A stretch of 64,000 nucleotides of DNA, from the NCBI RefSeq assembly GCF_023028225.1, contig NZ_CP095482.1, forward strand, positions 62,001 through 126,000. The letters are read 5' to 3'. A model generated the notes under the pieces. The model worked only from the letters and a program-made list of their open reading frames with translations. It searched no databases and was not told the DNA's origin. The position numbers were made by a program, and so were the translations under genes. The DNA is from Halorientalis litorea. GTDB taxonomy: Archaea; Halobacteriota; Halobacteria; Halobacteriales; Haloarculaceae. Of this stretch, positions 15,779-38,038 are shown in pieces; the first letter of the stretch is position 1; each line of letters begins with the position of its first letter.

Positions 15779-18769
15779 CTACGGCGTCGCCACGGTCCGC
15801 TCCGGCCCGGCGACGCGTGACTGCTCGCTCGTCGAGTTACCGTCTGTTCCCGAGTCCGTGGAACCGCCGTCTTCGGACGGTTCTCGGAGCACTTCTTCGG
15901 ACAGTTCGACCTGTACCGTACTGTCGTCTTCGCCGATGACCTGCGCCTCGCTGACGCTCGCACTATCGGTGTACCGGACGACAGACCCGTCGTCAGCCCG
16001 CTGAATACCCGTGGTGAACTGGTAGTCACCCGTCGCGCGGGTGCTGACGTTCGTGTGCCCGTTCTCCGGCCCCCACTGGTCGTACCCGGTGGTGGAGTAC
16101 GGGACGGTCATCGTGAACGTCCCGTCCTCACCGGTTTCGGCACGCTGGGTGTAGGTGAACGTCTCGTTGTTCGTCGGTGCGTTCATCTCCACCCTCGCGG
16201 TGACCGTCGTGTTCGTCGGTGCCGTTCCTTCGATGGTGGCACCGTCCACGCGCTCGAACACCTTCACCCACGGCGGGGACGCACCGGTGGGGAGCAGCAG
16301 CGACTGAATCTGTCCCTGGGTCTGTGCCAACTCCTGCTGGCTCATCTGCTGGGTGTTTCCGGCGAGTCCCGTCAGCGTCCGCCTGAGCGAGAGGAGGTAC
16401 GGACTCCCGCGCTGAATCGCCGAGGTGTTCGAGTTGTGGACCAGCCGGTAGTGTTCGAGCGCGTCGACGTACTCCGGCGGGTTCGGGCCGATTCCGCCCA
16501 CCTGCGCCGAGCCGTCCTCCTCGACGAACTCCCGTGCCTGTTGGACCGATTGCTGTGGCGACTGGAGGGGATTGCCGAACACCCGGTACCGGGACTGGTT
16601 GCCGGTCGGAGTCGTCAGGAACCGCTGGCCCCGGACGACCCGCTCGTCGTAGTTGGCGACGACTGGCGTCGGCTGTCGGGCACTCCCGTGGAAGTACCAC
16701 AGCCGGTTGACCATGCTCTCGTAGTACCGCTGACTTCGGAGGTAGTAGGCCTTCTGTGCCTGTTGGCCCTGTATCTGGAGCACGCGGCTGAAGAAGTCAC
16801 CGCGGTCGATGTCCGCCTCGTCGTAGAAGATGATGGGTGCGAAGAACTTCCCGTTGGCCTCCGGCCACTCGTTGACCATCTTCCAGTCGACCATGACGTA
16901 CTGTGGCTGGCTGTCGTTCTCGCTCATCTCCCCGACGACGCGCTCTGCCTGCGTCTCGTTGGGTGCGAGCAGGAAGTTCGCCGCGTCGGTGGCTCCCTGC
17001 TGGAACGGGTTGGCCGTCGGTATCCGGCCGCTGCGACTCGTAATCCAGTGCCCGTAGTCCCACCACGAAATGACGCCGTACGCCCCCGGCGCGTAGTCGT
17101 AGTCGTCGGTCCGTTCGTTGGTGCCGTACAGCTCCATCGCGTTGTCTTCACCGCCGTACGTGCCCGGTGTCGGTGTGTTGTCGCCCATCCAATCGAGGCC
17201 GCTATCCCAGCCGACCACGCCGGAACTCGGCGCGTTCGCGCCACCGCGCTCCCACGCCGTCGTGGGCCGGTCCGGGGCACCGACGGCCAGCGGCGCGACG
17301 AGGATGATGAGGACGGTGAGAACTGCGAGGACTTGGAACGTCTGGACGCCTTCGGTCCCTTCACCGGGAGAGATGTACGTGAGAACTAGTCTGACCACGT
17401 ACGCGTTGACTAGTGCTATCGGGAGGACGAGGTAGTAACTGAACCGCTGTTGGGTGAGCGTCGCCAGCAGAATGATGACACTCCAGATGACGACGAGGAA
17501 CCACTCGGACGAGGCGTCACGCCGACGGAGGTACGCCCCGAGCATCAGCAACGCGCCGACCCCGGCACTGACGAACGCCAGCCCGTAACTCGAAAACAGC
17601 GTTACGAACGGCCGCGGGAGGGGCTGTGCCTCACCGATAGTGCCTGACTGTGCCCCGCCGCCGAGGCCGACGACCCGGCCCGTGTTCTTCACGATGTACT
17701 GGAGGAAATCCGGGACGAGAACGGCCGCCACCAGCGCGACGGCGGCGATAGCACCGAGTACCGCGAACGGGTACGTGCGCGGGTCGAGGTCCCTGTCGTC
17801 GAACTCCCGTGCGAGGTAGGCCATGAACACACACCCACCAGCGATACCGAACGTGAGGAACGGTTGGAGCAGCGAGAAGTCCGTCGCCGTGAACGCGAAG
17901 GAGTTGAGCGGCAGGAGCATCAGCACACCAGTCACGCCCAAGGCGACGGCACCGACGAAGGCGACCGGTTCGGGACTGGCACCGCGGACGTAGTCGAGCG
18001 TAATCTGGAGGAGGAAGAAGATACCGAGAATCCCGACCAGCAGGACGCCCGGCGGCCACGTCCAGAGATACAGCGCGAGTGCGACGCCCGCGAGTGCCGC
18101 CCACCCGGCGGACTTCCTGAGGGCACCCCACTCGCGGTTCGCGACGAGTTCCCAGACGGGGTACTCGGACTCGGCGACGCCGAGCGCGGTCATGAACGCG
18201 ACGACGGCCATCATCTGCAAGAACACCTCCGCGATGTGGTGGTCGGAGAAGCCGACTAGCCCACGGCCGAGGAACCCGCCCGTCGAAAGCGCGAGGACCA
18301 GTACCCCCAACACCCCGCCGAAGCGACCGCCGAGACGCTTGCCGCCGAGGTAGACGGGGATAGCGACGAGCGTCCCGATGACTGCGGGCGCGAACAGGAG
18401 CGTCATCGCGATGGTCTGTTGACTCGGGTCGCCGAGGCCGACGACGAGAGCAGCGGTGGCGACGACTTGGTCGAACAGCGTCCCGAACTGGCTGTTGGCC
18501 GTCCCGTACGGGAAGTACGTGTGCGCGTCGAACGGCATCGTCTGTGGCCAGTTCTGGACCGTGTAGGTCGTCTGTCGAAGGTGATACCACGGGTCGTTCC
18601 CGGAGAAGAGTACCTGTCCGTCGCGGACGAAGTTCCCCCAACTCCGGGCCCTGACCCAGAACATGAACGCCATCAACACGAGGAGTGACGGGACGTGGTA
18701 CCAGTCCCGCAGGTCCTCGAGTGCGGCGTCGAAGTCGTACTCTGTGAGTCGCCCCCTACGCTGGCTCAT
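15779..18769 (-). CDS. aglB: Archaeal oligosaccharyltransferase AglB (STT3 family)
   Basis: 996 aa from MSQRRGRLTEYDFD; a TTG four codons upstream is less likely. It transfers a lipid-linked glycan to Asn of exported proteins. The N-terminal half is polytopic (about 13 helices) with GNDPWYHLRQTTY in the first outer loop (catalytic Asp) and GFSDHHIAEV (second acidic motif). The soluble C-terminal domain begins near residue 500 and has the sequon-binding WWDYG motif at about 569-573 (ISWWDYGHWITS). It is the anchor gene of the island; the rest of the pathway lies to its right on both strands. The start follows a region with no obvious gene. Confidence 0.96.
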   Translation of the reverse strand: MSQRRGRLTEYDFDAALEDLRDWYHVPSLLVLMAFMFWVRARSWGNFVRDGQVLFSGNDPWYHLRQTTYTVQNWPQTMPFDAHTYFPYGTANSQFGTLFDQVVATAALVVGLGDPSQQTIAMTLLFAPAVIGTLVAIPVYLGGKRLGGRFGGVLGVLVLALSTGGFLGRGLVGFSDHHIAEVFLQMMAVVAFMTALGVAESEYPVWELVANREWGALRKSAGWAALAGVALALYLWTWPPGVLLVGILGIFFLLQITLDYVRGASPEPVAFVGAVALGVTGVLMLLPLNSFAFTATDFSLLQPFLTFGIAGGCVFMAYLAREFDDRDLDPRTYPFAVLGAIAAVALVAAVLVPDFLQYIVKNTGRVVGLGGGAQSGTIGEAQPLPRPFVTLFSSYGLAFVSAGVGALLMLGAYLRRRDASSEWFLVVIWSVIILLATLTQQRFSYYLVLPIALVNAYVVRLVLTYISPGEGTEGVQTFQVLAVLTVLIILVAPLAVGAPDRPTTAWERGGANAPSSGVVGWDSGLDWMGDNTPTPGTYGGEDNAMELYGTNERTDDYDYAPGAYGVISWWDYGHWITSRSGRIPTANPFQQGATDAANFLLAPNETQAERVVGEMSENDSQPQYVMVDWKMVNEWPEANGKFFAPIIFYDEADIDRGDFFSRVLQIQGQQAQKAYYLRSQRYYESMVNRLWYFHGSARQPTPVVANYDERVVRGQRFLTTPTGNQSRYRVFGNPLQSPQQSVQQAREFVEEDGSAQVGGIGPNPPEYVDALEHYRLVHNSNTSAIQRGSPYLLSLRRTLTGLAGNTQQMSQQELAQTQGQIQSLLLPTGASPPWVKVFERVDGATIEGTAPTNTTVTARVEMNAPTNNETFTYTQRAETGEDGTFTMTVPYSTTGYDQWGPENGHTNVSTRATGDYQFTTGIQRADDGSVVRYTDSASVSEAQVIGEDDSTVQVELSEEVLREPSEDGGSTDSGTDGNSTSEQSRVAGPERTVATP

Positions 18770-18889
18770 TGGGCGGGACAAAAACTATTGGCCGCATAAA
18801 CTTTGTCAAATTACGCCACCCAGAGCGTCGTCTGGCACCGAGGGATGGGAAGGAAAACGACTATCCCCGACGGCCGCACAGCCCTGCGT

Positions 18890-19810
18890 ATGCGGGTCTC
18901 GGTCGTCCTCTGTACTCACACGCTCGACCGGTACGACGTGTTCACGGAGGCAGTCGAGAGCATCCGCGACCAGACCCACGACGATACCGAACTCGTCCTC
19001 GTCAGCGACGGCTCACAGGCCGTCTGCGACCGTCTCCGGGCGGATTGGGGAAGCCGAGACGACGTTCTCGTTCACTGTAACGACGCGAACGTGGGCCTGT
19101 TGGAGAGCCGAAACAACGGCGCGCGCGCCGCGACGGGTGAGGTGGTCGCCTTCATCGACGACGACGCGGTTGCAGACGCCGAGTGGGTCGAACGCCTCGT
19201 CAGAGCCTACGAGGAGGAGGACGCGCTCGCGGCCGGCGGCAAGATGGCACCCGAGTGGGTGGCGGGCCGCCCCGCGTTCCTCCCGGCGGAGTTCTACTGG
19301 CTGGTCGGCGTCACCCAGCGCGGGTTCGCCGACGGCCCCGGCGAAGTCCGCAACACCTTCGGCTCGAACATTTCCTTCCGGCGGGACGTGTTCCTCGAAC
19401 TCGGCGGGTTCGACACGGAAATCGGGGGCCGCCAAGGCGACGCGAACCTCCAGGGCGGCGAGACGGAACTCGCCGCACGACTGCAGGCCGAGTACGGCCA
19501 CGGCGTCTACTACGACCCGGACGCCGTCGTCGCTCACAAGGTGTTCGACTTCAGGACTCGGCCGCGCTGGCTGTTGGACCGGGCCTTCTGGCAGGGGTAC
19601 TCCAAACGAGGAATGGAGGTGTTGACGCCCGAGTCCTCCGACGAAGAGTTCGATTTCCTCGGCCGCCTTCTCACCGAGTTCGCGCCTGCACGTGCGAAGA
19701 ACCTCATAATCAACCCGTCGGTGGAGCGGTTCCTCCAGTTCGTGATGCTGTTCGTGTTCACCGGCGTCGTCGGGGCAGGGTATCTCTACGGGATGACGAA
19801 GTGGCGGTGA
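18890..19810 (+). CDS. AglG-like family 2 glycosyltransferase
   Basis: 306 aa from MRVSVVLCTHTLDRYDVF. GT-A motifs are SVVLCTHTLDRYD, ELVLVSDGSQAV, NNGARAATGEVVAFIDDDAV (metal-binding DDD near residue 90) and RGGFDTEIG-type acceptor region (LGGFDTEIGGRQGDANLQGGETELAARL). A C-terminal hydrophobic helix (about 280-300) tethers it to the membrane. The layout resembles AglG/AglI-type hexuronosyltransferases of the Haloferax N-glycan pathway. The sugar it adds cannot be read from sequence. Divergent from aglB. Confidence 0.85.
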   Translation: MRVSVVLCTHTLDRYDVFTEAVESIRDQTHDDTELVLVSDGSQAVCDRLRADWGSRDDVLVHCNDANVGLLESRNNGARAATGEVVAFIDDDAVADAEWVERLVRAYEEEDALAAGGKMAPEWVAGRPAFLPAEFYWLVGVTQRGFADGPGEVRNTFGSNISFRRDVFLELGGFDTEIGGRQGDANLQGGETELAARLQAEYGHGVYYDPDAVVAHKVFDFRTRPRWLLDRAFWQGYSKRGMEVLTPESSDEEFDFLGRLLTEFAPARAKNLIINPSVERFLQFVMLFVFTGVVGAGYLYGMTKWR

Positions 19811-19877: not shown

Positions 19878-21020
19878 ATGACAGGGGCGGGGCCTGAGGA
19901 CGGGGTGGAACTCGCTGACCTCGACGTAGCCGTCGCTCACTGGCACGTCAACGCCTGGGGTGGAGCCGAGTATCTCGTGACCAGACTGGCCGAGGCACTC
20001 GACTGTGGGCAGGTGTACACCGTCGGGTCGCCGGACCCGGACGACCCCAACCCCTACGGAGACGTGGCGTTCGTCGACGTGACCGATGGCTTGTCGCCGC
20101 GGCCGCTCCGGAAACTGCAGGCCCGCGCCGGCCGGGTGTTCGAGTACGCGCTCTGGGAGGACGTGGACTGGCGCGACTACGGCCACCCGGACGTACTCGT
20201 CACCTCGGGCGCGACGACGCGGGCGGTCATCACGCCAGACGACACGCTCCACGTCAACTACTGTCACTCTCCGCCACGGTGGTTCTACGACCTCTATCAC
20301 GACCGGAAGGACTCGCTGACGGGGATACTCGCGCGGCCGCTGGTTCGGTACCTGCGTCTCCGAGACGCCACCGTCGACCGCAGAGTGGACCGTTACTTCG
20401 CGAACAGCCCCGTCATCGCCCGCCGGATTCGGAAGTACTACCAGCGGGAGTCCGAAGTGCTGTACCCGCCCGTCGATATCGACGCCTACGACGATGCAGG
20501 CGACGACGGGTTCTACCTGCACCTCGGCCGTCTCGACGAAGAGAAGGGCGTGCCGGCCATCGTCGACGCCTTCGCGGAGTCCGACCACGAGTTGGTCCTC
20601 GCGGGCGGCCGCGGCGACGTGAGCGAGGCCGTGATGGACCGGATTCGCAGGAGCGAGACCATCGACTACCGTGGGTTCGTCTCGGAGGGCGAAAAGCGGG
20701 CGTTGCTCGGGACGTGTCGTGCCGTGGTGTTCAACGGCCGCAACGAGGACTTCGGTATCGTCCCCGTCGAGGCGAACGCGAGCGGGAAGGCCTGTCTGAC
20801 ACGCGACGAGGGGTTCCCCGGCCAGTTCGTCACGGACGGCGAGAACGGGTACTGTCACGACGGGTCGCCGGACGATATCACGGCCGCAGTCGAGCGGTTC
20901 GAGGGTCAGGGAATTGCCGGTAGTCCGCGGGAACACGTCGAGACGTTCGCGTTCGACGCGTTCCGCGAGCAGTTGGGGTCACGGGTCACCGCGTGGTACG
21001 ACGAGTTCAGTCTCGTGTGA
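19878..21020 (+). CDS. Family 4 glycosyltransferase
   Basis: 380 aa, GT-B fold. N-terminal domain begins AVAHWHVNAWGGAEYLVTRLAEAL, with a GGAE sugar-nucleotide loop. The C-terminal domain has FYLHLGRLDEEKGVPAIVDAF, RAVVFNGRNEDFGIVPVEANASGKACLT (E-x7-E region: EDFGIVPVE). This is a retaining GT4 transferase acting on lipid-linked intermediates in the cytoplasm. It has its own TATA box at 19848 and is followed 65 bases later by an AP-superfamily gene. Confidence 0.9.
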   Translation: MTGAGPEDGVELADLDVAVAHWHVNAWGGAEYLVTRLAEALDCGQVYTVGSPDPDDPNPYGDVAFVDVTDGLSPRPLRKLQARAGRVFEYALWEDVDWRDYGHPDVLVTSGATTRAVITPDDTLHVNYCHSPPRWFYDLYHDRKDSLTGILARPLVRYLRLRDATVDRRVDRYFANSPVIARRIRKYYQRESEVLYPPVDIDAYDDAGDDGFYLHLGRLDEEKGVPAIVDAFAESDHELVLAGGRGDVSEAVMDRIRRSETIDYRGFVSEGEKRALLGTCRAVVFNGRNEDFGIVPVEANASGKACLTRDEGFPGQFVTDGENGYCHDGSPDDITAAVERFEGQGIAGSPREHVETFAFDAFREQLGSRVTAWYDEFSLV

Positions 21021-21085
21021 GCCGTCGGACTGTCCGGTGAAACGGAAAGTATTTGCGGGAGAGTTGGGTTGTCACGGCAAAGGGT

Positions 21086-22618
21086 ATGTCGAACGACGTG
21101 ATTCTGGTCGGCGTCGACGGCGCGACCTACGACCTGCTCGACGACTGGGTGGCTTCGGGGGTACTACCCAACTTCGCGGCCATCGCCGAGAGCGGCGTCT
21201 CGCACACACTCGAATCCGTCGTCCCGACGCAATCCGTTCCCGCGTGGCCGTCGTTCAACTCCGGCAAGAACCCGGCCAAACACGGCCTGTTCGCGTTCAA
21301 CGAGGACGTGAAGGGGGACGGCGACGTACTCGTGGACTCCCGACGGCTCCACAGCCCACGGTTCTGGGACTACCTCGCCGACGACGGAATGGCTCCGGGC
21401 GTCGTCGGGTCCGTACTCACGTACCCGCCCCGTCACCTCGCGCACGGTTTCGAGATTGCGGGACCGCTGACACCGAGCGATGCCACGGAGTTCACCGCAC
21501 CGTCGTCGCTCGGTGAAGAGCTCCGGGCAGAGGTGCCGGACTACTCCTTCGGGCCGGACCTCGGGGGGTCACGCGAAGACATCCAGCGAGCGTGCATAGA
21601 CAGCGTCGACCACCGTGCAACGGCGAGCAAGCACCTCATGACGGAGAAGGAGTGGGACTTCTACTCGGTGCTGTTCATCGCCACCGACCGCGTCCAGCAC
21701 AAACTCTGGGACACACCCGAGATGATACGGCCCGTCTACGAGCGTGTCGACGAGTTCTTGGGCTGGGTCCGCGCGGAGTTCCCGGACGCGAACCTGCTCG
21801 TCGTCTCGGACCACGGGTTCACCGCACCGCCCGAACGGGACTTTTTCCTCGATACGTGGCTGGCCGAACGCGGGGACGACGACGCCGGGGCGGGTGCCAG
21901 CCGAAAGTACGCGCTGGCAAAGCGCGTCTACTCGACAGTTCGGCAGTCGACGGGCATCAACCTCCGTGGCGTCCTCCCGGCGGCAGTCGAGTCGTGGCTC
22001 ACCGACTCGGGCGACGGCGGGGGCGACGAGCCATCCATTCGGGCCGCGAGTAACACGCACTTCGACGGCGTGTTCGTCTCCGACGCGCGCGACGATTACG
22101 AGCAGGTCCGGGAAGAACTCATCGAGGACTTGCTCGCGTTGCGGCACCCGCAGACTGGCGACCCGGTGGTCAGCGAGGCGTGGAAACGCGAGGAGCGATA
22201 CAGCGGGGAGTACCTTCACCTCGTCCCGGACGTGGTGGTCTTGCCACACCCGAACTACAACGTCAACGCCAACCCGTACACCGACACGTTCGGTCAGTTC
22301 CCCGGCATGGAGAACGAAGGGACCCACGACGCGGCTCCCGACGGAATCCTCCTCGGTGCCGGACCGGACATCGCGGCGACGGACGAACGTGGCCGGGTGT
22401 CTCTTCTCGACGTGCCGCCGACGATACTCCACCTCCTCGGGTCGGCCGTTCCCGAGGACGTAGACGGCACCGTACTGACGGATGCCCTCGCTGGAGGACC
22501 GGCCGACCGGTCGGTGGAGTATCGGGAGCCACTCGCGTACACGCCCGAGAGCGACGAGGGCGACTTGGACGAACGGAACGACGTGGAAGACAGACTGGAG
22601 GACCTTGGATACCTGTGA
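21086..22618 (+). CDS. Alkaline-phosphatase-superfamily phosphodiesterase/phosphotransferase-like protein
   Basis: 510 aa from MSNDVILVGVDGATYDLLDD. Metal-binding Asp11 in VGVDGAT, the nucleophile region VPTQSVPAWPSFNSGKNPAKHG (Ser50 at the nucleophile position), and VVSDHGFTAPPERDFFLDTWL carry the two-metal alkaline phosphatase core. The shape is like type I phosphodiesterase/nucleotide pyrophosphatase relatives. No signal peptide, so it is likely cytoplasmic. It ends RLEDLGYL, a tail shared by the two other superfamily members in this island. Overlaps the HprK-like gene by GTGA. Substrate unknown; modification of a glycan or its donor is a plausible role. Confidence 0.82.
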   Translation: MSNDVILVGVDGATYDLLDDWVASGVLPNFAAIAESGVSHTLESVVPTQSVPAWPSFNSGKNPAKHGLFAFNEDVKGDGDVLVDSRRLHSPRFWDYLADDGMAPGVVGSVLTYPPRHLAHGFEIAGPLTPSDATEFTAPSSLGEELRAEVPDYSFGPDLGGSREDIQRACIDSVDHRATASKHLMTEKEWDFYSVLFIATDRVQHKLWDTPEMIRPVYERVDEFLGWVRAEFPDANLLVVSDHGFTAPPERDFFLDTWLAERGDDDAGAGASRKYALAKRVYSTVRQSTGINLRGVLPAAVESWLTDSGDGGGDEPSIRAASNTHFDGVFVSDARDDYEQVREELIEDLLALRHPQTGDPVVSEAWKREERYSGEYLHLVPDVVVLPHPNYNVNANPYTDTFGQFPGMENEGTHDAAPDGILLGAGPDIAATDERGRVSLLDVPPTILHLLGSAVPEDVDGTVLTDALAGGPADRSVEYREPLAYTPESDEGDLDERNDVEDRLEDLGYL

Positions 22619-23616
22619 CGAACTATCGTATCAACGACCTGTTGTCGATAGCGACAGACACGAACGTACCGGTTCCCGAATACTACGAAGTCCCGCAACT
22701 GGAGGAGCACCCCGACGTGCGGTTCGTCGTCGGTGACCTCGACGGCTGGGACGCCGAGGCGGCACCGCGGCGAATCGGCTCGCGCTACCGCTGGGACCCC
22801 GACGGCACGCTGTATCTGGAGTGGAACCTGCCACTCGACCTGCGTGCGTCCATCACCGGCCTCGGCGACGCCGACAGCCAGACCGTCGTCAAAATGACCG
22901 AACAGTACGAGAAACGCGGGGACATCGGTTCGCTGTTCACCTCCGTCCTCGCAGTCGAGCTGTTGGCCCGCGACGCGACGCTCGTCCACGGTGGGTGTGG
23001 CTCCCGACCCGACGGCGGCGCGCTCATCACCGGCTGGGACGACATGGGCAAGACGTCGACCTGTCTCTCCGTCCACGACCGGGGCGGCTTCTCGTTCATG
23101 GGCGACGACGCCGTGTTGCTCACAGCCGACGGACAGGCTCACGCGTGGGACTACGCCGTCGGCATCAGCCCGTACACGTCGATGGGGAACATCCCGATGT
23201 CACGGAAAAAACGCCTCCGTATCGTGGCGAAACGACTCGCCAAGGGCGTGCCCGGTCTCGGCGTCCTCCACTCGGCCCGCGAGAAAGTCGACGTGACCGG
23301 CATCATCGGCGACCGGCGCACCACCTGTCCGCTCGAGACGGTGTACTTCCTCGAAGGCGGAGAGGCGGGCCCGCGAGAGATTTCGGCCACGGAGGCAGGG
23401 CGACGACTCGCGGAGACGACCACCGCGGACAAGGAGATGGTCACCCACGATGCCATCGAGACGTACGCGTACCTCGACCCCACGGTCTCCGGCGTCACCG
23501 CGGCCCGACGCGAGGTTATGGAGGCGGCAATGTCCGAACTGGAAACCGTCGAACTCTGCTCCGAGGACAAGGACGTCTACCCCGACTGGATAGTCGAGAC
23601 GTATCCGGAACCCTAA
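22615..23616 (+). CDS. HPr-kinase-like P-loop protein
   Basis: 333 aa from a GTG start that overlaps the preceding stop (GTGA). A P-loop GWDDMGKTS at residues 140-148 is followed by FMGDDAVLL (Asp164/Asp165), the arrangement of the HPr kinase/PEPCK-like fold rather than a standard Walker ATPase. There is no sign of a phosphocarrier HPr partner or PTS nearby. A nucleotidyltransferase of PF14907 type lies on the opposite strand about 260 bases away. In bacteria HprK-related kinases and such nucleotidyltransferases are found together in extracellular-polysaccharide clusters, so a glycan-linked role is likely. True substrate unknown. Confidence 0.75.
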   Translation: MTNYRINDLLSIATDTNVPVPEYYEVPQLEEHPDVRFVVGDLDGWDAEAAPRRIGSRYRWDPDGTLYLEWNLPLDLRASITGLGDADSQTVVKMTEQYEKRGDIGSLFTSVLAVELLARDATLVHGGCGSRPDGGALITGWDDMGKTSTCLSVHDRGGFSFMGDDAVLLTADGQAHAWDYAVGISPYTSMGNIPMSRKKRLRIVAKRLAKGVPGLGVLHSAREKVDVTGIIGDRRTTCPLETVYFLEGGEAGPREISATEAGRRLAETTTADKEMVTHDAIETYAYLDPTVSGVTAARREVMEAAMSELETVELCSEDKDVYPDWIVETYPEP

Positions 23617-23876
23617 GCCAGCCCCAGCCGCTCCCAGAGCCGGTACCACCGGGCGTTCTCGCGGAGTTTTTCCAGCGTAATCTCACGGCGTGGCGGGTAC
23701 GCCCTGAGCTTTCGGCCCGCGCTCATCGCCAGCACGGCGGGCACGACGACGAGGAGGCCCAGCACGACGCCGAGCGGTTTGGACCACGTTCGATACACCA
23801 GTACCGGCACAGCCAGCGCGAGCGCGCCGCCCACGAACAGCCCTGCACCGACCAGTCGCTCCGTGTCTCGTCCCAT
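23613..23876 (-). CDS. Two-helix membrane protein (87 aa)
   Basis: MGRDTERLVGAGLFVGGALALAVPVLVYRTWS then a second helix VVLGLLVVVPAVLAMSAGRKL and a basic/aromatic tail ending RLWERLGLA. It overlaps the convergent HprK-like gene by 4 bases and abuts the nucleotidyltransferase gene upstream on its own strand with no gap, so it is very likely co-transcribed with it. No recognised domain. Confidence 0.65.
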   Translation of the reverse strand: MGRDTERLVGAGLFVGGALALAVPVLVYRTWSKPLGVVLGLLVVVPAVLAMSAGRKLRAYPPRREITLEKLRENARWYRLWERLGLA

Positions 23877-24926
23877 CTATATCACCTGATTCGCGAGGAT
23901 GACGTAGTGAGTCAGCGTGCCGTACAGCGTGTCCGCCGGCGACATCGACCCGAGCGACCGCCGGAGGTAGTGCCCCGAGGAGGAGACGCAGGCGATTCGG
24001 CGCGGCACCTGCAACGGCAACACGAACGGGTCGGCCGCCGTCTCGAACCACGCCTCGAGTTTCTTCGAGGGGCGTGACGCCCGGAGGTCCGAGAGTACCC
24101 ACTCTGGCACCGGGTTCTCGGCGCGGTACGCCTCGGCGTAGGCGTCCATCGCGCGCACGAACAGGTAGACGCTGTCCATCGACCCGTAGGTCCGGGCCAT
24201 CCCGACGACGCGCTCCCAGTCGAAGTCCGCATCGACCATCTCGAAGCCGTGGAGTACCTCCGCGAGCGTGAGTCGCATGTGGGCGTAGGCGTGGGTAGCG
24301 ACGAGGTGGAAACTGTCCTCGGGGTCCGGAACGGGGACCGTCCGCCCGCCGAACTCGGTCGTCTCGCCTCTGTCGAGTACCGCTTGGCCCTCACAGACCT
24401 TCTTGCGTACCCAAATCGCGTCGGGGTAGATGTCGACCGGGTTGTTCTGCCCGTCGACGTACTTGTGTGCGTTGACCTTCAGCGGGTGACAGAGCAGGCG
24501 AGACTGCTTGAGCGTGAACTCCTCGGCGACGAGTTTCTCCGACATCTCGACCACGTCGTCGGCGTCGGTGACGAGCAGGTCGATGTCCGCCATCACGCTG
24601 TAGGGGTTCCTGAGTTTCTTGATGTGGAGATACTCCCACCCCTCGCCGTCGAGGAGGTCCTCGACGACGCCGATACGGTCCTCGTGGATTTCGAGTTGGC
24701 GCGCGTGGGCAGACATCGACTCGGCCAGCGGTTCCTGATTGGCCAGCGAGGTGGTCACGTCGGCGTCGGCCAACGCGGATGTCGCGAGTTTGTTCTTGCG
24801 GAATCCCCGGTCGAGCCCCTCGGCGGTGACGCCGTCCGCGACGTGCGGGTCGAGCGTCGCCGCCGAATCAGTAAGAGATAAAACACTCCGAAATGCCCCT
24901 TGAGACACGCTGGTCGGGTCGGCCAT
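23877..24926 (-). CDS. Nucleotidyltransferase-fold protein (PF14907-like)
   Basis: 349 aa. The core has a helical N-terminus, then SVMADIDLLVTDADDV (Asp114 and Asp116, DxD of the nucleotidyltransferase fold) and NPVDIYPD (Asp165, third acidic residue), with an all-helical C-terminal part. This matches the uncharacterised nucleotidyltransferase family PF14907, seen by me from pattern rather than search. Neighbours are an HprK-like protein and glycosyltransferases. It may transfer a nucleotide to a sugar or protein; the acceptor is unknown. The start at 24926 is 31 bases from the divergent GT4 gene. Confidence 0.72.
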   Translation of the reverse strand: MADPTSVSQGAFRSVLSLTDSAATLDPHVADGVTAEGLDRGFRKNKLATSALADADVTTSLANQEPLAESMSAHARQLEIHEDRIGVVEDLLDGEGWEYLHIKKLRNPYSVMADIDLLVTDADDVVEMSEKLVAEEFTLKQSRLLCHPLKVNAHKYVDGQNNPVDIYPDAIWVRKKVCEGQAVLDRGETTEFGGRTVPVPDPEDSFHLVATHAYAHMRLTLAEVLHGFEMVDADFDWERVVGMARTYGSMDSVYLFVRAMDAYAEAYRAENPVPEWVLSDLRASRPSKKLEAWFETAADPFVLPLQVPRRIACVSSSGHYLRRSLGSMSPADTLYGTLTHYVILANQVI

Positions 24927-24957: not shown

Positions 24958-26097
24958 ATGCGCATCGGGGTCTACAATCCCGCAGTCGGGACACGGTACT
25001 CGGGTGGCACGGAGACGTTCCTCCGAGAGATGATTCGTCGCCTCCAGACCGACCACGAGGTGGTCCTCTACACCGGGGACGGGGATATCCTCCCCGAACT
25101 GGACTTGCCGAACGTCGACGTGACGGGCCTGCCGTGGCTGGACAAGTCCCGCCGGGCGACGGACCTCCTGCGGACGGCGACGGCAGGACAGATGCTCCCG
25201 GCGGAGGTGGAGTCGCTGTCGCTGTTCGGCGGCGCGCGCTTCGGCCGGCGTATCGACGCCGACGGCATCGACGTCCTCTCGACGCACTACTACCTCGACA
25301 ACCTCCTCGTCTCACGGGCAGTCGACGTGCCGACGCTCTTTCGCTTCCCGGGCATCCGGTCGCCGTCGATTCGCTGGCGCGTGATGGCGCGCCACGCGGA
25401 CCCGTCGCTGTACGTGAGCAACAGCGAGACGACGGCCGGGCGCGTGGAGACGTGGCTGGACCTCGATATCGCGGGGACGGTGTACGCGGGCGTCGACACG
25501 GACAGGTTCCACCCGGACGTGTCCCCCGCCATCGACCGCGACGAGTTTACAGTGCTGTTCGTCGGCCGTCTAGACGCCGGGAAGGGGCTGGCAGAACTCG
25601 TCGACGCCGTGGCGCGCCTCCGCGAGTCGACGCCGGCGCGTCTCCTCCTCGTCGGCGACGGGACGCTCCGCTCGGACCTCGAAGCCCGCGCCGAAAAGCG
25701 CGGCATCCGCGACGCGGTGACCTTCGCCGGGGAAGTCGAACACGGGGAGATACACCACTACTACGCCTCGTGTGACGCGTTCTGTCTCCCCTCCGAACAC
25801 GAGGGGTTCCCGGTGGTCAACGTGGAGGCGATGGCCAGCGGGAAACCGGTCGTCAGCACGCACATCCCGGCAGTCGAGGAGCAAATCGTCCACGAGGAGG
25901 ACGGCCTGCTGGTCGACGTTGGCGATGTCGACGCGCTCGCGGCCGCACTCGAACGCCTCGCCACGAACCCCGGACTGCGGGAGCGACTGGGCGAGGCCGC
26001 CCGCGAGAAGGCCGTCGCCGAGTTCACGTGGGGCGTGCAGGCCGACCGGATGGCGACACTCTACGAACGCGCCCGGGACGAGGGGACGCGACGATGA
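24958..26097 (+). CDS. Family 4 glycosyltransferase
   Basis: 379 aa, GT-B. MRIGVYNPAVGTRYSGGTETFLREM (N-terminal GGTE loop), SLYVSNSETTAGRVE, FTVLFVGRLDAGKGLAEL, and the C-terminal CDAFCLPSEHEGFPVVNVEAMASGKPVV with the E-x7-E motif (EHEGFPVVNVE) define a retaining GT4. It overlaps the next GT2 gene by four bases (ATGA), so the two are translationally coupled and probably act consecutively. Sugar specificity unknown. Confidence 0.92.
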   Translation: MRIGVYNPAVGTRYSGGTETFLREMIRRLQTDHEVVLYTGDGDILPELDLPNVDVTGLPWLDKSRRATDLLRTATAGQMLPAEVESLSLFGGARFGRRIDADGIDVLSTHYYLDNLLVSRAVDVPTLFRFPGIRSPSIRWRVMARHADPSLYVSNSETTAGRVETWLDLDIAGTVYAGVDTDRFHPDVSPAIDRDEFTVLFVGRLDAGKGLAELVDAVARLRESTPARLLLVGDGTLRSDLEARAEKRGIRDAVTFAGEVEHGEIHHYYASCDAFCLPSEHEGFPVVNVEAMASGKPVVSTHIPAVEEQIVHEEDGLLVDVGDVDALAAALERLATNPGLRERLGEAAREKAVAEFTWGVQADRMATLYERARDEGTRR

Positions 26098-26954
26098 CCG
26101 CCGACCCGGCCGTGGACGTGGTCATCTGCACGATGGACCGCCGGGAGAAGTTGGAGACGTGTCTCTCTCGTCTCTCGGAACTCGCCTACGACGACTACCG
26201 GGTCGTCCTCGTGGACTCGGGCGACGACGCCGACGTGGTCGAGACGGTGCCGGGCCTCCCAGTCACGTACGTCAGCGCGCCGCCGGAGGGGTTGCCGAAC
26301 GCACGGAACCGCGCGCTGGAACGCTGTGAGGGGAACATCGTCGCGTTCCTCGACGACGACGCCTACGTCGACCCGGGGTGGCTCCGCGCAATCGTCGCCG
26401 AGTTCGAGGACGACGGCGTGGGCGGCGTCGGCGGGCCTGTCCTCGACCCGGGCGAAGACCTCCGTGCGGTGACGCCGGTGGCGGAACTCCGGGCGAACGG
26501 CGAGGTCATCGACAACTTCGACTCCTCAGTCCGGGCGTCCGTCGACCACCTCCGCGGTGCGAACATGAGTTTCCGGGGGTCGGTTCTCGAAGACATCGGT
26601 GGCTTCGACGAAGGCTTCGGCCGACGAGGTGAGGGTCGGGCACACTTCGAGGACACCGACGTGAGCCACCGCGTCAAGCGGGCCGGCTACGACCTAGTGT
26701 ACACGCCCGCCGCGCCGGTGGTCCACGACCACGGTTTCCGCGGGAGTGACAGTTATCACGAGTGGCGACTGCGCAACTGGCTCCGCCTCTACCGGCGCGT
26801 CGACCACGGCACGCTCGACGCCGTAGACTTTCTCTGGCGGTACCTCGCCCGCTGTGGGTACTTCAGCGTGCAGGCCCGTCGCCCTCTCGTCGGGAACGTT
26901 CTGTCTCTTCTCTCCGGGCAACCGCCGGTCGAAAACTCCGTCCGAGAGCGGTAG
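26094..26954 (+). CDS. Family 2 glycosyltransferase
   Basis: 286 aa from MTADPAVDVVICTMDRREKL, starting within the stop of the GT4 gene. GT-A motifs: VVICTMDRREKLETCLSRL, RVVLVDSGDD, NARNRALERCEGNIVAFLDDDAYVDP (DDD metal site), GANMSFRGSVLEDIGGFDEGF and HFEDTDVSHRVKRAGYDLVYTP. The C-terminus is partly amphipathic with no clear helix. A soluble or peripheral enzyme that adds a sugar to the growing lipid-linked glycan. Confidence 0.9.
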   Translation: MTADPAVDVVICTMDRREKLETCLSRLSELAYDDYRVVLVDSGDDADVVETVPGLPVTYVSAPPEGLPNARNRALERCEGNIVAFLDDDAYVDPGWLRAIVAEFEDDGVGGVGGPVLDPGEDLRAVTPVAELRANGEVIDNFDSSVRASVDHLRGANMSFRGSVLEDIGGFDEGFGRRGEGRAHFEDTDVSHRVKRAGYDLVYTPAAPVVHDHGFRGSDSYHEWRLRNWLRLYRRVDHGTLDAVDFLWRYLARCGYFSVQARRPLVGNVLSLLSGQPPVENSVRER

Positions 26955-26998
26955 CGAACCCGAAAGCGTATGTAGAGCCGTGCCCCAGCCATCGGGCA

Positions 26999-28561
26999 AT
27001 GAGACCTGTCGTCATTCTCGGCCTCGACGGTGCGGCCATCGACGTTATCGACGGGTGGGTGGACGACGGCGAACTCCCGAACCTCCGCCGCGTTCGCGAG
27101 GAGGGGGTCTACGAACCGATGCACGCCTGCCTGCCGCCGGTCACCTCTCCGAACTGGAAATGCTACGCGACTGGCCGCAACCCCGGAGAGTTCGGCATCT
27201 TCTGGTGGCAGAACGTCGACTTCGAGGGCGAGCGCATCCACTACCCGAACGACCGGAAGTTCATCACGCCGGAGATTTGGGACTATCTCAACGAGAACGA
27301 CCAGTCCGCCGGTGTGGTGAACCTCCCCATCCAGTACCCGCCGCGGGAGGTAGACGAGTTCATGATAGCCGGCGGCCCCGACGCCGAGAACGAGGGGTAC
27401 ACCAACCCTGCGACCCTCGAAGACCGCCTCGAATCCGAGTACGACTGGAAGGTGCGCGCCGACACGTCCATCAACGAGCAGGGGATGGACGCAGTCGACG
27501 AGATAATCGACCTCATCGGCCTCCGCTTTTCGGTCGCGGCCGACCTGTTCGAGGAACGTGACCTCGATTTCCTCCACGTCACGACGTTCCACATCAACCA
27601 ACTCCAGCACTTCCTCGGCGACCACGAGAAGACGCTGGAAGGCTGGAAGCGAATCGACGACGCGCTCGGACGATTTCTGGAACAGGACGTGAACGTGCTG
27701 TTGATGAGTGACCACGGGTCCGCACCCATCGAGAAGATATTCCACGTCAACACGTGGCTCGAACGGAACGGCTTCCTCGAACTCGACATGAACGAAGCCG
27801 TCACTGGCTTCTTCGAGCGAGTCGGCCTCACGCGGACACGGGTCCGAGCCGTCGTCAACACGCTCGGCATCGCCGACGCGCTCAAGCGGGTGACGCCGGA
27901 TTCGATGGTCAACAGCCTCCCCGAGGAGACCGGTGCCATCAACCAAGCGTACGCGACGGACTTGATAGATTGGGACGCCTCGGTGGCGGTAGCGAGCGGA
28001 CAAGGCCCCATCTATCTCAACCCACAACTGAGTGACTCCGGACGGGAACGAGCGATCACGGAGATTACCGAGGGGCTCGAATCGCTGACGCTCCCCGGGT
28101 CGGACGCGCCGACGGTCCGGGAGGTTCGACGTGGTGACGAGGTGTACAGCGGTCGGTTCGCGGCGGAGGCACCCGACCTCGTATTGGACCAAGGTCCGGG
28201 CGTCCACGTCGACGGCGACTTCGGCGGTGAGGACCTCTACCGTGACCTCGGCGAGTGGAGTATGCTGAACGCCCGCGACGGCATCTTCATGGGCCACGGT
28301 CCGGACGTTCAGTCGGCATCGCTGGACGACCACGCCGAGATTCTGGACCTCGCCCCGACGATTCTCCACTTACTCGACTGTCCGGTACCCGAGACGTTGG
28401 AGGGGCGAGTCGTCACGGAGATGTTCGCCGAGGGGAGCGACCCCGCCGAGCGTCCCGTCGAGCGAGTCGAACCGGGTCACTACGACATCGCCGCCAGCGG
28501 GCGCGGCGACGGACAGGCACTCGAAGAGCGCCTGCAAGACTTGGGCTACCTCGACCAGTAA
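26999..28561 (+). CDS. Alkaline-phosphatase-superfamily enzyme (second copy)
   Basis: 520 aa from MRPVVILGLDGAAIDVIDGW. Metal Asp10 in LGLDGAA, nucleophile region LPPVTSPNWKCYATGRNPGEFG (Thr49 at the nucleophile position), and LLMSDHGSAPIEKIFHVNTWL. It resembles the 510-aa protein at 21086 in order and length and ends RLQDLGYLDQ. A TATA-like agcgtatgtag about 27-30 bases upstream supports a leaderless start. No signal peptide. The flippase gene follows 2 bases after the stop. Likely phosphodiesterase or phosphotransferase; substrate unknown. Confidence 0.82.
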   Translation: MRPVVILGLDGAAIDVIDGWVDDGELPNLRRVREEGVYEPMHACLPPVTSPNWKCYATGRNPGEFGIFWWQNVDFEGERIHYPNDRKFITPEIWDYLNENDQSAGVVNLPIQYPPREVDEFMIAGGPDAENEGYTNPATLEDRLESEYDWKVRADTSINEQGMDAVDEIIDLIGLRFSVAADLFEERDLDFLHVTTFHINQLQHFLGDHEKTLEGWKRIDDALGRFLEQDVNVLLMSDHGSAPIEKIFHVNTWLERNGFLELDMNEAVTGFFERVGLTRTRVRAVVNTLGIADALKRVTPDSMVNSLPEETGAINQAYATDLIDWDASVAVASGQGPIYLNPQLSDSGRERAITEITEGLESLTLPGSDAPTVREVRRGDEVYSGRFAAEAPDLVLDQGPGVHVDGDFGGEDLYRDLGEWSMLNARDGIFMGHGPDVQSASLDDHAEILDLAPTILHLLDCPVPETLEGRVVTEMFAEGSDPAERPVERVEPGHYDIAASGRGDGQALEERLQDLGYLDQ

Positions 28562-28563
28562 CC

Positions 28564-30099
28564 GTGGCGAGCAGAGAGTCTCTGCGGACGCTCGTCAAGG
28601 GTGCCGGGTTCAGCCTGTTCGGGTCGGTGTTCTCGAAGGTCAGTCACTTCGCGTTCTACTGGGTCATCGCCCGCGTCGCCGGTGCCGACGGGTTCGGGGT
28701 GTTCTCCGTCGCACTCGCAGTGCTGGGCTTCTCGCAAATCGTCTCTCTCCTCGGCCTCCGTGGCGGCGTCAACCGCTACGTCGCGTACTATCGTGGCCAA
28801 GACGACGAGGCACGCGCCCGTGGCACAGTCCGTATCGCCGTCGTCGCAGTCCTCGTATCGAGTCTCCTCGTCGCCGTCGTCGTCGCTGCAGGCCACGAGT
28901 ACCTCGCGGACCTGCTTCTGGACCCCGGCACACCCTCGCGTGTCCTCTACCTGATTGCGTTCGTCGTCCCCTTGGAGGCCCTTTCGTCGGTATTTATGGC
29001 GACGCTCCGGGGACTCAAGCGCATCGACTTTCAGGTCGCCGCACAGAACATCCTGCAGGGCATCCTCAAGATAACCGGATTTCTCGCCTTCTACTTGGCA
29101 GGGTTCGACACGCTGGTCAGTCTCGTCTTCGGGTACGCGACGGCGATGGTCGGCACACTGCTCGTCGGTCTCTACTTCGTCGAGGGTCGAGAATTCCCCG
29201 TGCTACGCGGTGGGGCACGCTACGAGCCACGGGAACTGTTGGTGTTCTCGATTCCGTTGTTGTTCACGGGCGCGCTCAACCTCGTGGTGGACTGGACGGA
29301 CGTGTTGATGCTCGGGTACTTCGGCGTCAACGCCGACGTCGGTATCTACAACATCGCGTTGCAGGTGGCGATGGTGATGCAAATCGGGTTCACGGCGTTC
29401 GGAGCAATCACGGGACCCGTCCTCTCGGAACTCGTCGGGAAGGACGAACTCGGAGAACTCGAATCGGTGTTGAAAATATCGAACAAGTGGGTGCTGGTCC
29501 TGACAGTCCCGATGGTGGCGTTCGTCTTCCCGTTCGCCTCCGATGTCGTGCGACTGTTCGGGACGGAGTTCCGACAAGGCGCGAGCGTGGTGGTACTCAT
29601 CGGCATCGCGATGCTTGTCAAGACGACGTTCAGCATGAGTGGCACGGTCATCAAGAGTATGGGGCACTCGAACATCATCCTCGCGAACCACGCCGTCGCT
29701 GGCGTGTTGAATTTCCTGATGAACCTCGTCCTCATCCCGCAGCTCGGCATCGTCGGCGCGGCCATCGCAACCAGCGTCGCAATCGGATTAGACGGCATAC
29801 TTCCGGGCGTCGAACTGTACCTCTGGAAGCGTATCTCGCCACTCAGGCCGGACTTCGTGGAACCGGTCGCCGCCGCCGCCGTGTCGACGGTAGCAATCTT
29901 CGTCGGTCTCGGGTGGGCGACTGACATCCACTACCTGATGATTCTCCCCGTCGGGACGGTCTATCTTTTCGTCTACGGGTTCGTTCTGATGAGCATCGGT
30001 GGCCTCAAAGAGGAAGACGTGTACATTCTCGAAGCGATGCGGGACCGAACGGGCTTCGAGAGTCCACGTATCGAGCGGTTCGTCCGCCGCTTCGTCTGA
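28564..30099 (+). CDS. Polysaccharide/oligosaccharide flippase (MOP superfamily)
   Basis: 511 aa from a GTG start 3 bases after the previous stop. About 14 hydrophobic helices, with the N-terminal FSLFGSVFSKVSHFAFYWVIARV and GADGFGVFSVALAVLGFSQI typical of Wzx-like and AglR-type transporters. Such proteins move lipid-linked glycans across the membrane, and here would pass the finished glycan to AglB. The upstream in-frame extension overlaps the AP gene and is not part of the protein. AglR function in Haloferax is flippase or closely associated with it. Confidence 0.88.
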   Translation: MASRESLRTLVKGAGFSLFGSVFSKVSHFAFYWVIARVAGADGFGVFSVALAVLGFSQIVSLLGLRGGVNRYVAYYRGQDDEARARGTVRIAVVAVLVSSLLVAVVVAAGHEYLADLLLDPGTPSRVLYLIAFVVPLEALSSVFMATLRGLKRIDFQVAAQNILQGILKITGFLAFYLAGFDTLVSLVFGYATAMVGTLLVGLYFVEGREFPVLRGGARYEPRELLVFSIPLLFTGALNLVVDWTDVLMLGYFGVNADVGIYNIALQVAMVMQIGFTAFGAITGPVLSELVGKDELGELESVLKISNKWVLVLTVPMVAFVFPFASDVVRLFGTEFRQGASVVVLIGIAMLVKTTFSMSGTVIKSMGHSNIILANHAVAGVLNFLMNLVLIPQLGIVGAAIATSVAIGLDGILPGVELYLWKRISPLRPDFVEPVAAAAVSTVAIFVGLGWATDIHYLMILPVGTVYLFVYGFVLMSIGGLKEEDVYILEAMRDRTGFESPRIERFVRRFV

Positions 30100-35602: not shown

Positions 35603-36435
35603 GGGTGTGTCGCTGCGTTCTCGACGACATCGTCGACCCCGTCGCCGAGTCGGTGAGTACACCGCGAAAGATACTGTTCCAGCCGTCTGTAGTCGTCGTC
35701 GAGGTCTAGGTTCTCGTTCCCGAAGACCATCGGGTGGAGGTTGAGCGTGCCGCCGAACGCCGCACTGAAGACGTGATGGTACGGTTTCAGCCGGTTGTGT
35801 TCCGCGCGGTGGATGTACGCGGGGTTGAGGACGACCGGCGTCTCTCGGAGGCCGAGGCGGCGAACGCGGAGGTACAGGGGAATCTTCGCCACGTCCTTGG
35901 CGATGGCCATCCGAATCGAGTGGTCGTGTGTGAGTCCGAGGGCTTTCAACTGTCTGGCGATATCGAGGGAGAAACTGAGGTTCCCGGCCCTGAAGTGGTC
36001 CGTATCGACCCCCGCCTCCCGGAGCATATCGTAGTCACGGCCAATCATCGTGTGGATGTCCGGACTGTCGTAGTCGGCCAGCATTCCGGCGTCGAGGTCG
36101 TTAACGTGGTCTCCCTCGAAGGCAGGATGTAACTGTGGGTGCGTGTGGACTCCGAGGTCGTGGCCCGCCGCGTCGATGTCACCGACCAGCCCTGGGTTGT
36201 ACTCACAGAATTCGCCGGTCACGAAGAAAATCGCTTTGACGTCGTGTGTCCCGAGGAGGTCGAGTAACTGCGGCAGTGCGCGCTGGTCCATCTCGTAGGA
36301 CGGCGACCCGGATTTGGGAAAGTCGGGGCCTCTGCGCCGCTCTTTCTCCGCCTGCGAGAACTCGTGGGCGCGCCAGTCCCGTTCCGTGTCGAACGTCGGG
36401 TAGATGGAGATACCGTCGGCCCAAGGCGTATTCAT
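35599..36435 (-). CDS. Polysaccharide-deacetylase-superfamily protein
   Basis: 278 aa from MNTPWADGISIYPTFDTERDW; a TATA-like tttatacc about 27 bases upstream supports this start. Motifs: PTFDTERDW (first Asp), IFFVTGEFCEYNP, GHDLGVHTHPQLHPAFEG (His cluster of motif 2), and FRAGNLSFSLDIARQLKALG. This is the long-spaced deacetylase branch acting on surface polysaccharides or sugar nucleotides. First gene of the minus-strand amino-sugar set and translationally coupled to the formyltransferase-like gene. Confidence 0.82.
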   Translation of the reverse strand: MNTPWADGISIYPTFDTERDWRAHEFSQAEKERRRGPDFPKSGSPSYEMDQRALPQLLDLLGTHDVKAIFFVTGEFCEYNPGLVGDIDAAGHDLGVHTHPQLHPAFEGDHVNDLDAGMLADYDSPDIHTMIGRDYDMLREAGVDTDHFRAGNLSFSLDIARQLKALGLTHDHSIRMAIAKDVAKIPLYLRVRRLGLRETPVVLNPAYIHRAEHNRLKPYHHVFSAAFGGTLNLHPMVFGNENLDLDDDYRRLEQYLSRCTHRLGDGVDDVVENAATHP

Positions 36436-36586
36436 TACCTTACGGGTGACGTGGCACGGGTATAAATCTTCCAACCTCTTCGCCGGACGGTGTCACGTGG
36501 CTGTGCCCACTCGGTCGGCCTTCGACGTTGCTGTCGTGCCTACCGACAACGAAAGGTATAGACCGGCTTTCCTCGAAGCGGTACGC

Positions 36587-38038
36587 ATGTCTGAGCGCCC
36601 GGACATCGTCGTCCTGATGCTGGACTCGGTGCGAGCGGACGCGCTCTCCTGTTACGCCGGCGGTGACTTGACGCCGAACATCGACGCCATCGCCGATGAC
36701 GGCCTCCTGTTCGAGAATGCGTTCGCCCCAGCGACGTGGACGGTGCCGACGCACGCGTCGCTGTTTACAGGTGCCTACCCCGGTGAACACGGTACCGACA
36801 AGGGAAACTCCTATCTCAACCCCTCGTACACGACGCTCGCCGAACGCCTCTCGGGTGCGGGGTACGAGACGGTGCTGTACTCGAACAACGTCCACCTCAC
36901 CGACGAGTTCGGGTTCACCCGCGGCTTCGACGTAGCGGAGAGCAGTCACGCCGTCTCCGACGACGAGAACGTTATCGACTGGAACGAGTTCATCGCCGGC
37001 CGAGACCACGACTCCGGCCCGCGGAAGTACCTCGAAATCCTCGGCCACGTCTGGAAGAACCGCGACAAAGACGTAGTGCAGTCGCTTCGCAACGCCTCAC
37101 AACTCAAGTACAACTACCACTTCGGCGACAACGGCGCACGGGCCACGAACCGCTTTCTTACGGACTACGAGTTCGACAGCCCCTCGTTCGTGTTCGTCAA
37201 CTACATGGAGGCCCACAATCCCTTCGAGCCGCCGGATGGGTACGGCACGGACGAGGGTTCACCGGACGTGGAAGGGTGGAAATACGACAGCGGGATGCCC
37301 GGTGCGGACCTCACCGACGAGCAGAAAGAGACGCTGAAGGAGAACTACCGCGGCGAGATAGCCTACTTGGACGAGCGAATCGGCGACGTGTACGACGAAC
37401 TCGTGGACGAGAATACGGTGTTCGTCGTCACGGCGGACCACGGCGTCGCCATCGCCGATCACGGCTACCTCTACCACGGGACAGGGCTGTACAATCCCGT
37501 GACGAAGGTGCCGCTCGTGGTCGCTGGGACCGACCGGAGTGGCCGTATCGACCACTCCGTCGGCCTCATCGGACTGTACCGGACGGTCTGCCAGCTAGCG
37601 GGCATCGACCCAGAGGAAGGCGTCGACTCCACGATACGCGGGTCGGACTGGCTCTCGGTCGATGCGAACCGAGACGTATACATGGAGCGACAGGGACAGG
37701 CGGCGGATTTCGTCGAGCAGGTCCGGGCGGTGCAGGGTAACCGCGCGGCAGCGGAAGCCGACAAGTACGAACGCGCGCTCGTCCGCGGCCGCCACAAGTA
37801 CATCAGAGAGTGGGACCCCGAAACGGAGTCGTGGGCGACAGAAGGCGGCGAACTCTACGACTACGTCGAGACACCGGACGAGTCGACGGAACTAGACGAC
37901 GAGGACGTGCGGGCGACGATGCGAGCGGCACTCGACGATGTCGCCGACTCGCTCGAACCGCGAGAGAACACTGGGGGCGTCTCTGACCTCGATTCCGACG
38001 TCGAGGACCGCCTGCAGGAACTGGGGTACATCACCTGA
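36587..38038 (+). CDS. Alkaline-phosphatase-superfamily (sulfatase-fold) enzyme with a Thr nucleophile
   Basis: 483 aa from MSERPDIVVLMLDSVRADAL; TATA-like aggtatag 27 bases upstream fits a leaderless start. Asp13 (MLDS), then FAPATWTVPTHASLFTGAYPGEHG, VVTADHGVAIADHGYLYHGTG and GGELYDYVETP. The position of the sulfatase formylglycine (CxPxR) reads T52-V-P-T-H, so it should not be a classical sulfatase; a phospho- or phosphoethanolamine-type transferase or phosphodiesterase is more likely. Ends RLQELGYIT, the same tail motif as the other two AP enzymes. It overlaps the TrmB regulator gene convergently by 8 bases. Confidence 0.84.
   Translation: MSERPDIVVLMLDSVRADALSCYAGGDLTPNIDAIADDGLLFENAFAPATWTVPTHASLFTGAYPGEHGTDKGNSYLNPSYTTLAERLSGAGYETVLYSNNVHLTDEFGFTRGFDVAESSHAVSDDENVIDWNEFIAGRDHDSGPRKYLEILGHVWKNRDKDVVQSLRNASQLKYNYHFGDNGARATNRFLTDYEFDSPSFVFVNYMEAHNPFEPPDGYGTDEGSPDVEGWKYDSGMPGADLTDEQKETLKENYRGEIAYLDERIGDVYDELVDENTVFVVTADHGVAIADHGYLYHGTGLYNPVTKVPLVVAGTDRSGRIDHSVGLIGLYRTVCQLAGIDPEEGVDSTIRGSDWLSVDANRDVYMERQGQAADFVEQVRAVQGNRAAAEADKYERALVRGRHKYIREWDPETESWATEGGELYDYVETPDESTELDDEDVRATMRAALDDVADSLEPRENTGGVSDLDSDVEDRLQELGYIT

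Follow-up and report, generated by a model that had tools for sequence, protein, structure and literature searches.

An HprK-like kinase and a PF14907-type protein in a haloarchaeal N-glycosylation island: candidates for a phosphate-linked modification of cell-surface sugars

We analysed a stretch of 64,000 nucleotides from Halorientalis litorea (NZ_CP095482.1, positions 62,001 to 126,000; hereafter the window), in which two neighbouring genes encode a P-loop kinase-like protein assigned to the HprK/PEPCK superfamily (K, 333 aa; 22615..23616, + strand, GTG start, TAA stop) and a nucleotidyltransferase-fold protein of the NTP_transf_5 type (N, 349 aa; 23877..24926, - strand; PF14907, TAG stop). 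The evidence described here suggests that K and N add a phosphate-linked group to cell-surface sugars. K directly follows an AP-superfamily gene (21053..22618, +; PF01663, 133.5 bits), and the TGA of that gene and the GTG of K share the letters GTGA, which is consistent with translational coupling. The AP gene is preceded by a GT4-type glycosyltransferase (19878..21020, +; PF00534), giving the order GT4-AP-K in a + strand gene run that is headed by a GT2 glycosyltransferase (18803..19810, +; PF00535). Between K and N lies the gene of an 87-aa protein with two hydrophobic segments (23613..23876, -), whose start codon begins at the next base after the TAG of N and whose stop codon overlaps that of K (the two genes are tail to tail). 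As K and N are encoded on opposite strands, they are neighbours and not members of one operon. An earlier reading of the letters alone (the sequence-only reading) had described a P-loop protein coupled to an AP gene, and on the opposite strand a DxD protein with an abutting two-helix protein of 87 aa, and all of these are found at the positions given. The 87-aa protein has only a weak, sub-cut-off match to Phage_holin_3_6 and no homologue was found in the related loci, so that we assign no role to this protein, which is not conserved.

The surroundings contain the AglB oligosaccharyltransferase (15779..18781, -; STT3, AglB_core-like and AglB_L1 all exceed their cut-offs), a GT4 glycosyltransferase divergent from N (24958..26097, +) and a polysaccharide flippase (28555..30099, +; PF01943/MatE). 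With AglB, glycosyltransferases and a flippase around K and N, this segment is an archaeal N-glycosylation island, and the setting proposed earlier is supported. The island also contains a second PF01663 phosphodiesterase-like gene (26762-28561) and a sulfatase (36404-38038; PF00884), which indicates that several AP-superfamily enzymes serve it.

K has the catalytic core H-x(n)-GxxxxGK[ST]-x(n)-DD (H125, G145-K146-T147 and D164-D165), with GWDDMGKTS as Walker A and FMGDDAVLL as Walker B-like motif. Its match to Pfam Hpr_kinase_C is weak (15.4 bits, cut-off 33.3; E-value 0.014) and spans about 50 of the 171 positions of the catalytic domain; its NCBIfam scores are 10.7 bits for the hpr-ser model (cut-off 240) and 11.0 bits for HprK_rel_B (cut-off 200), and there is no match to HprK_rel_A. 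Full-length relatives are few and share 20–31% identity (the search covered 392 genomes from the order and 247 from the phylum), and H125, G145-K146-T147 and D164 are kept almost throughout their alignment. A profile of 18 relatives searched against all PDB sequences retrieves HprK first (1jb1/2qmh, 1.1e-6; 1ko7, 4.6e-5; 1knx, 8.1e-5) and PEPCK next (1j3b, 1.6e-3); a tighter profile of 11 sequences likewise puts HprK on top, at E-values of just 0.2–0.8. The weak Hpr_kinase_C match is therefore above chance, since H, GK[ST] and DD are retained in the archaeal relatives, whose matches are better, and since the profile finds HprK first. Judged at the level of sequence profiles, K is a member of the HprK/PEPCK superfamily with its catalytic core intact, and the HprK-type fold proposed earlier stands at this level. 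AlphaFold2 models of K built from one or two input sequences had mean pLDDT values of 32 and 31, too low for use. Peptide-pattern scans of genomes and viral contigs returned one named relative only, in an Archaeoglobi metagenome-assembled genome (locus L056), a locus that seems identical to L046 (gene calls in the related loci were made by a simple script).

N scores 31.8 bits against PF14907 (gathering cut-off 31.2) and aligns with the PF14907 proteins of haloarchaeal lasso-peptide clusters at a profile-profile E-value of 1e-16, and its earlier assignment as a PF14907-type protein is borne out at the profile level. It has a DxD in MADIDLLV (DID at 114-116) and a third acidic residue in PVDIYPD; we found no convincing relatives of N in the PDB. 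The genome of the window has a second, weak PF14907 match on another contig (C3:36522-36845, within L055:8352-9209; 20.9 bits, below the cut-off).

In haloarchaea, the strong PF14907 genes are part of paeninodin-type lasso clusters, where an HprK-like kinase and an ABC transporter are accompanied by PqqD (67 bits against a cut-off of 23.4), lasso B2 (90.5 bits against 33) and a lasso cyclase (611 bits against 525), although some loci are incomplete; a lasso-type kinase match lies within 10 kb of a PF14907 gene in 26 of the 392 haloarchaeal genomes. Such clusters are common in haloarchaea (L087-L102, e.g. L088:2240-10013 and L090:8438-13667), often with B2, cyclase and ABC exporter present. K aligns with the haloarchaeal lasso-type kinases at an hhalign E-value of 9.6e-15 over residues 1-271, which comprise the N-terminal domain and the P-loop core. 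By these comparisons K and N are remote homologues of the lasso-cluster kinase and nucleotidyltransferase, which supports the link drawn in the sequence-only reading to systems that combine an HprK-related kinase, PF14907 and PqqD. In a tree, lasso-type and window-type kinases fall on opposite sides of a branch with 100/99 support, and the close K group as one clade is neither rejected nor established (p-AU 0.388).

The chemistry of the lasso-cluster enzymes is partly understood from bacteria: PsmK phosphorylates the C-terminal Ser hydroxyl of a pseudomycoidin-type lasso peptide, and PsmN is required for the addition of one or two hexoses to the phosphate made by PsmK (PMC9266682, PMC8498205). 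In the LPP clusters of Bacillota, which frequently lack a cyclase, an HprK-like kinase and an NTP transferase are found within capsule loci, and LppK puts several phosphates on one Ser (PMC13381572). The best-understood relatives of the K+N pair are the paeninodin/pseudomycoidin-type lasso and LPP enzymes, which modify their substrate covalently and do not regulate it. Given this homology, and given that LPP clusters often do without a cyclase and sit in capsule loci (PMC13381572), one may ask whether the target of K and N is a small ribosomal peptide, with lasso genes that are divergent or located elsewhere. Haloarchaeal lasso-cluster profiles found no PqqD/RRE (B1), B2 or cyclase beside K in the window, no PqqD or B2 in any six-frame open reading frame of the window and 13 related loci, and an asparagine-synthase-like gene in only two of these (L045 and L046). 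LPP clusters need an RRE protein, yet PqqD is absent from the entire genome of the window, with controls positive. We therefore rejected a hidden lasso or LPP system, given no PqqD genome-wide and no B2 in the loci, and consider a concealed peptide substrate very improbable. A complete archaeal peptide system exists, and the window belongs to a separate, peptide-less branch.

To see how often the two genes lie together, we scanned the 392 haloarchaeal genomes with a wide kinase profile and compared the hits with the positions of PF14907 genes. In all six informative genomes with a K of the close group, a PF14907 gene is found 0.3–10.4 kb away, and in four of them within 0.6 kb (540 bp in the genome of the window, 273 bp in G018, and 270 bp in both G032 and G042, as compared to 8.3 kb in G109 and 10.4 kb in G003; G001 was left out as uninformative, its contig being 5.4 kb long). 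G018, G032 and G042 are of one genus, so the close group represents about four lineages. In G087, with a K of another branch, the distance is 6.9 kb. None of 18 haloarchaeal genomes with equally well-matching kinases of a related group (e.g. G227 C8, G157 C2 and G198 C8) has a PF14907 gene nearby, so a PF14907 gene close by is not a given for kinases of this type. In L036 and L038, K and N are both present twice, in a single gene run close to AglB, and in G518, outside haloarchaea, the immediate neighbour of K is an N with a fused thymidylate-kinase-like domain (L048). That K and N are chance neighbours, unrelated accessory genes in a variable glycan island, would fit their opposite strands, the mosaic nature of such islands, the lack of conservation of the 87-aa gene, and the occurrence of K without N in Archaeoglobi-like and other genomes; the distances in the close group, set against the absence of PF14907 genes around the sister kinases, together with the paired duplicates and the adjacent N-kinase fusion, make this explanation improbable. 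Co-occurrence of the pair in other archaea is supported: it holds for the close group of haloarchaea and fails in four other archaeal genomes that have K and no PF14907 gene.

Other arrangements of these families were also seen. A PF14907-type protein is fused to a thymidylate-kinase-like P-loop protein in L048 (7152-8876), overlaps one in L103 (8624-10365), and lies a few genes from one in L105 (6358-10210), which points to a second type of kinase that may partner N. A tandem pair of divergent K-type genes flanked by GT4 genes is found in L049 (8835-11046), in a genome without PF14907. A further clade of haloarchaeal HprK-like kinases is located 5' of two large proteins with no PF14907 near (L042:9558-14170, L044:8693-13650 and L053:9088-13844); in L042 one of these matches a dockerin-bearing calcineurin-like phosphoesterase and the other a CARDB/Ig-like protein. 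HprK-like kinases thus occur in yet another type of context.

Glycosyltransferases accompany K widely: K is directly 3' of a same-strand GT4 gene in eight loci (L039, L040, L041, L045, L046, L048, L049 and L103), the order GT4-AP-K is found again in L047, a PF01663 homologue is beside K in L040 and L047 too, and AglB is near K in the window, L036, L037, L038, L041 and L045. K is more closely associated with glycosyltransferases than with the nucleotidyltransferase, as the four archaeal genomes with K and no PF14907 gene indicate. This context bears on a rival explanation, by which the substrate of K is a free sugar or alcohol, whose phosphorylated form N converts to a nucleotide-activated donor for the neighbouring glycosyltransferases. 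K does adjoin GT4 genes, and CMP-sugar-type (CTP_transf_3) and epimerase-like genes are near K in L046; however, sugar nucleotidylyltransferases normally belong to families other than PF14907, whose members act after a kinase on a large acceptor in lasso clusters, and K is related to kinases with macromolecular acceptors. We regard such precursor activation as quite unlikely.

Somewhat less unlikely is that K is a regulatory protein kinase, similar to HprK, whose target serine is on a glycosyltransferase, on AglB or on an S-layer precursor and whose action tunes glycan assembly, with N a separate enzyme. HprK, lasso and LPP kinases all target serine hydroxyls of proteins or peptides (PMC8498205, PMC13381572), and four genomes have K without N. 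However, the Pfam match of K extends over no more than about 50 catalytic-domain positions of HprK, the paired K/N duplication in L036 and L038 suggests a two-step pathway, no conserved protein substrate gene lies beside K, and a genome-wide search for HPr (PF00381) found none, while seven controls including Haloferax volcanii were positive. As the remainder of the HprK domain is unmatched and the genome is without HPr, K is not HprK, and HPr-type regulation is rejected. The sequence-only reading, which had seen neither HPr nor PqqD in the window (true of the whole genome), had proposed an archaeal version of the HprK-related system that perhaps regulates or modifies glycan assembly; archaeal relatives do exist and modification is favoured, whereas regulation of the HPr kind falls away.

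Superfamily-level membership, the conserved catalytic motifs, the gene contexts and the co-location are what we observed, and from them we infer what the substrate and product are, in which order the steps run and what the AP enzyme does. With a probability of roughly 45%, K and N act in the cytoplasm, phosphorylating a hydroxyl group on the lipid-linked N-glycan and capping it via a phosphodiester; K, N and the AP protein have no transmembrane segment. K and N would be a kinase and a nucleotidyltransferase of the lasso-tailoring type that act without peptide machinery on the N-glycan precursor: K (soluble, cytoplasmic and ATP-using) would phosphorylate a sugar hydroxyl on the lipid-linked oligosaccharide, the sugar having been placed by a partner glycosyltransferase, and N would take this phosphate as acceptor and attach a nucleotide-activated group, most likely a sugar. 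The resulting phosphodiester-linked decoration would be formed before flipping and transfer by AglB, and the coupled AP-superfamily enzyme would act on a phosphoester in the same step or product, by hydrolysis or transfer. This model is supported by the conserved motifs, the profile that finds HprK first, the lasso-type homology of K and N, the proximity of PF14907 genes, the GT4/AglB context, and the absence of PqqD, B2 and HPr. More tentatively, the peptide-modifying kinase/nucleotidyltransferase module may also exist in a glycan-modifying archaeal form in which K phosphorylates an N-glycan sugar and N caps it via a phosphodiester, for which we found no published pathway in the literature searched.

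Several points weigh against this model. K alone misses all curated HprK cut-offs, N passes that of PF14907 by just 0.6 bit, and the two genes are on opposite strands in the window. No PF14907 gene is found in the K-bearing genomes G560, G483, G496 and G509 (all outside haloarchaea), so N is not obligatory, and both families favour glycan islands, which weakens the null for the co-location and leaves this evidence not wholly independent. We rejected the notion of a single orthologous GT4 that invariably goes with K, as scores and tree place the GT4s in different groups; even those of the window and L047, which share the order GT4-AP-K, are not orthologous. The literature searched contained no phosphorylated haloarchaeal or archaeal N-glycan, and nothing on an HprK-like kinase in archaeal glycosylation. 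Among the relatives of N, PsmN may or may not be the glycosyltransferase itself (PMC9266682), and LppN had no activity in the host used (PMC13381572).

If the model is true, one kinase-nucleotidyltransferase chemistry would act on archaeal surface glycans as well as on ribosomal peptides, and a phosphate-bridged group, possibly missed by ordinary glycan analysis, would be expected on haloarchaeal N-glycans. It would provide candidate genes for a step of archaeal glycan phosphorylation and open the poorly understood PF14907 family to tests in genetically tractable organisms, and the sister lasso-type clusters of the same archaeal order offer a built-in comparison for substrate switching.

Compared to known systems, K and N resemble PadeK/PsmK and PsmN in combining an HprK-like kinase that has an N-terminal domain with a nucleotidyltransferase partner (compared via the haloarchaeal lasso homologues). 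Unlike the paeninodin/pseudomycoidin-type clusters, window-type loci lack PqqD/RRE and B2 and lie with AglB and glycosyltransferases, and K is on a separate, strongly divergent side of the kinase tree (100/99). With LPP (LppK and LppN; PMC13381572; compared by description), the pair shares an HprK-like kinase and an NTP transferase in polysaccharide loci, often without a lasso cyclase; LPP of Bacillota depends on a transporter, an RRE protein and a peptidase of the SipW-like type, whereas the genome of the window has no PqqD-family protein. The HprK-related kinase A/B systems (TIGR04352/TIGR04355 with the PqqD TIGR04353) are of the same P-loop superfamily, and K and its relatives have some of their best NCBIfam matches there, but K falls far below the HprK_rel_B cut-off (11.0 vs 200 bits), does not match HprK_rel_A and has no PqqD. 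HPr kinase/phosphorylase (HprK) has the same H, GK[ST] and DD core and provides the nearest solved structures by profile, while K matches only about 50 of the 171 positions of its catalytic domain and is encoded in a genome without HPr.

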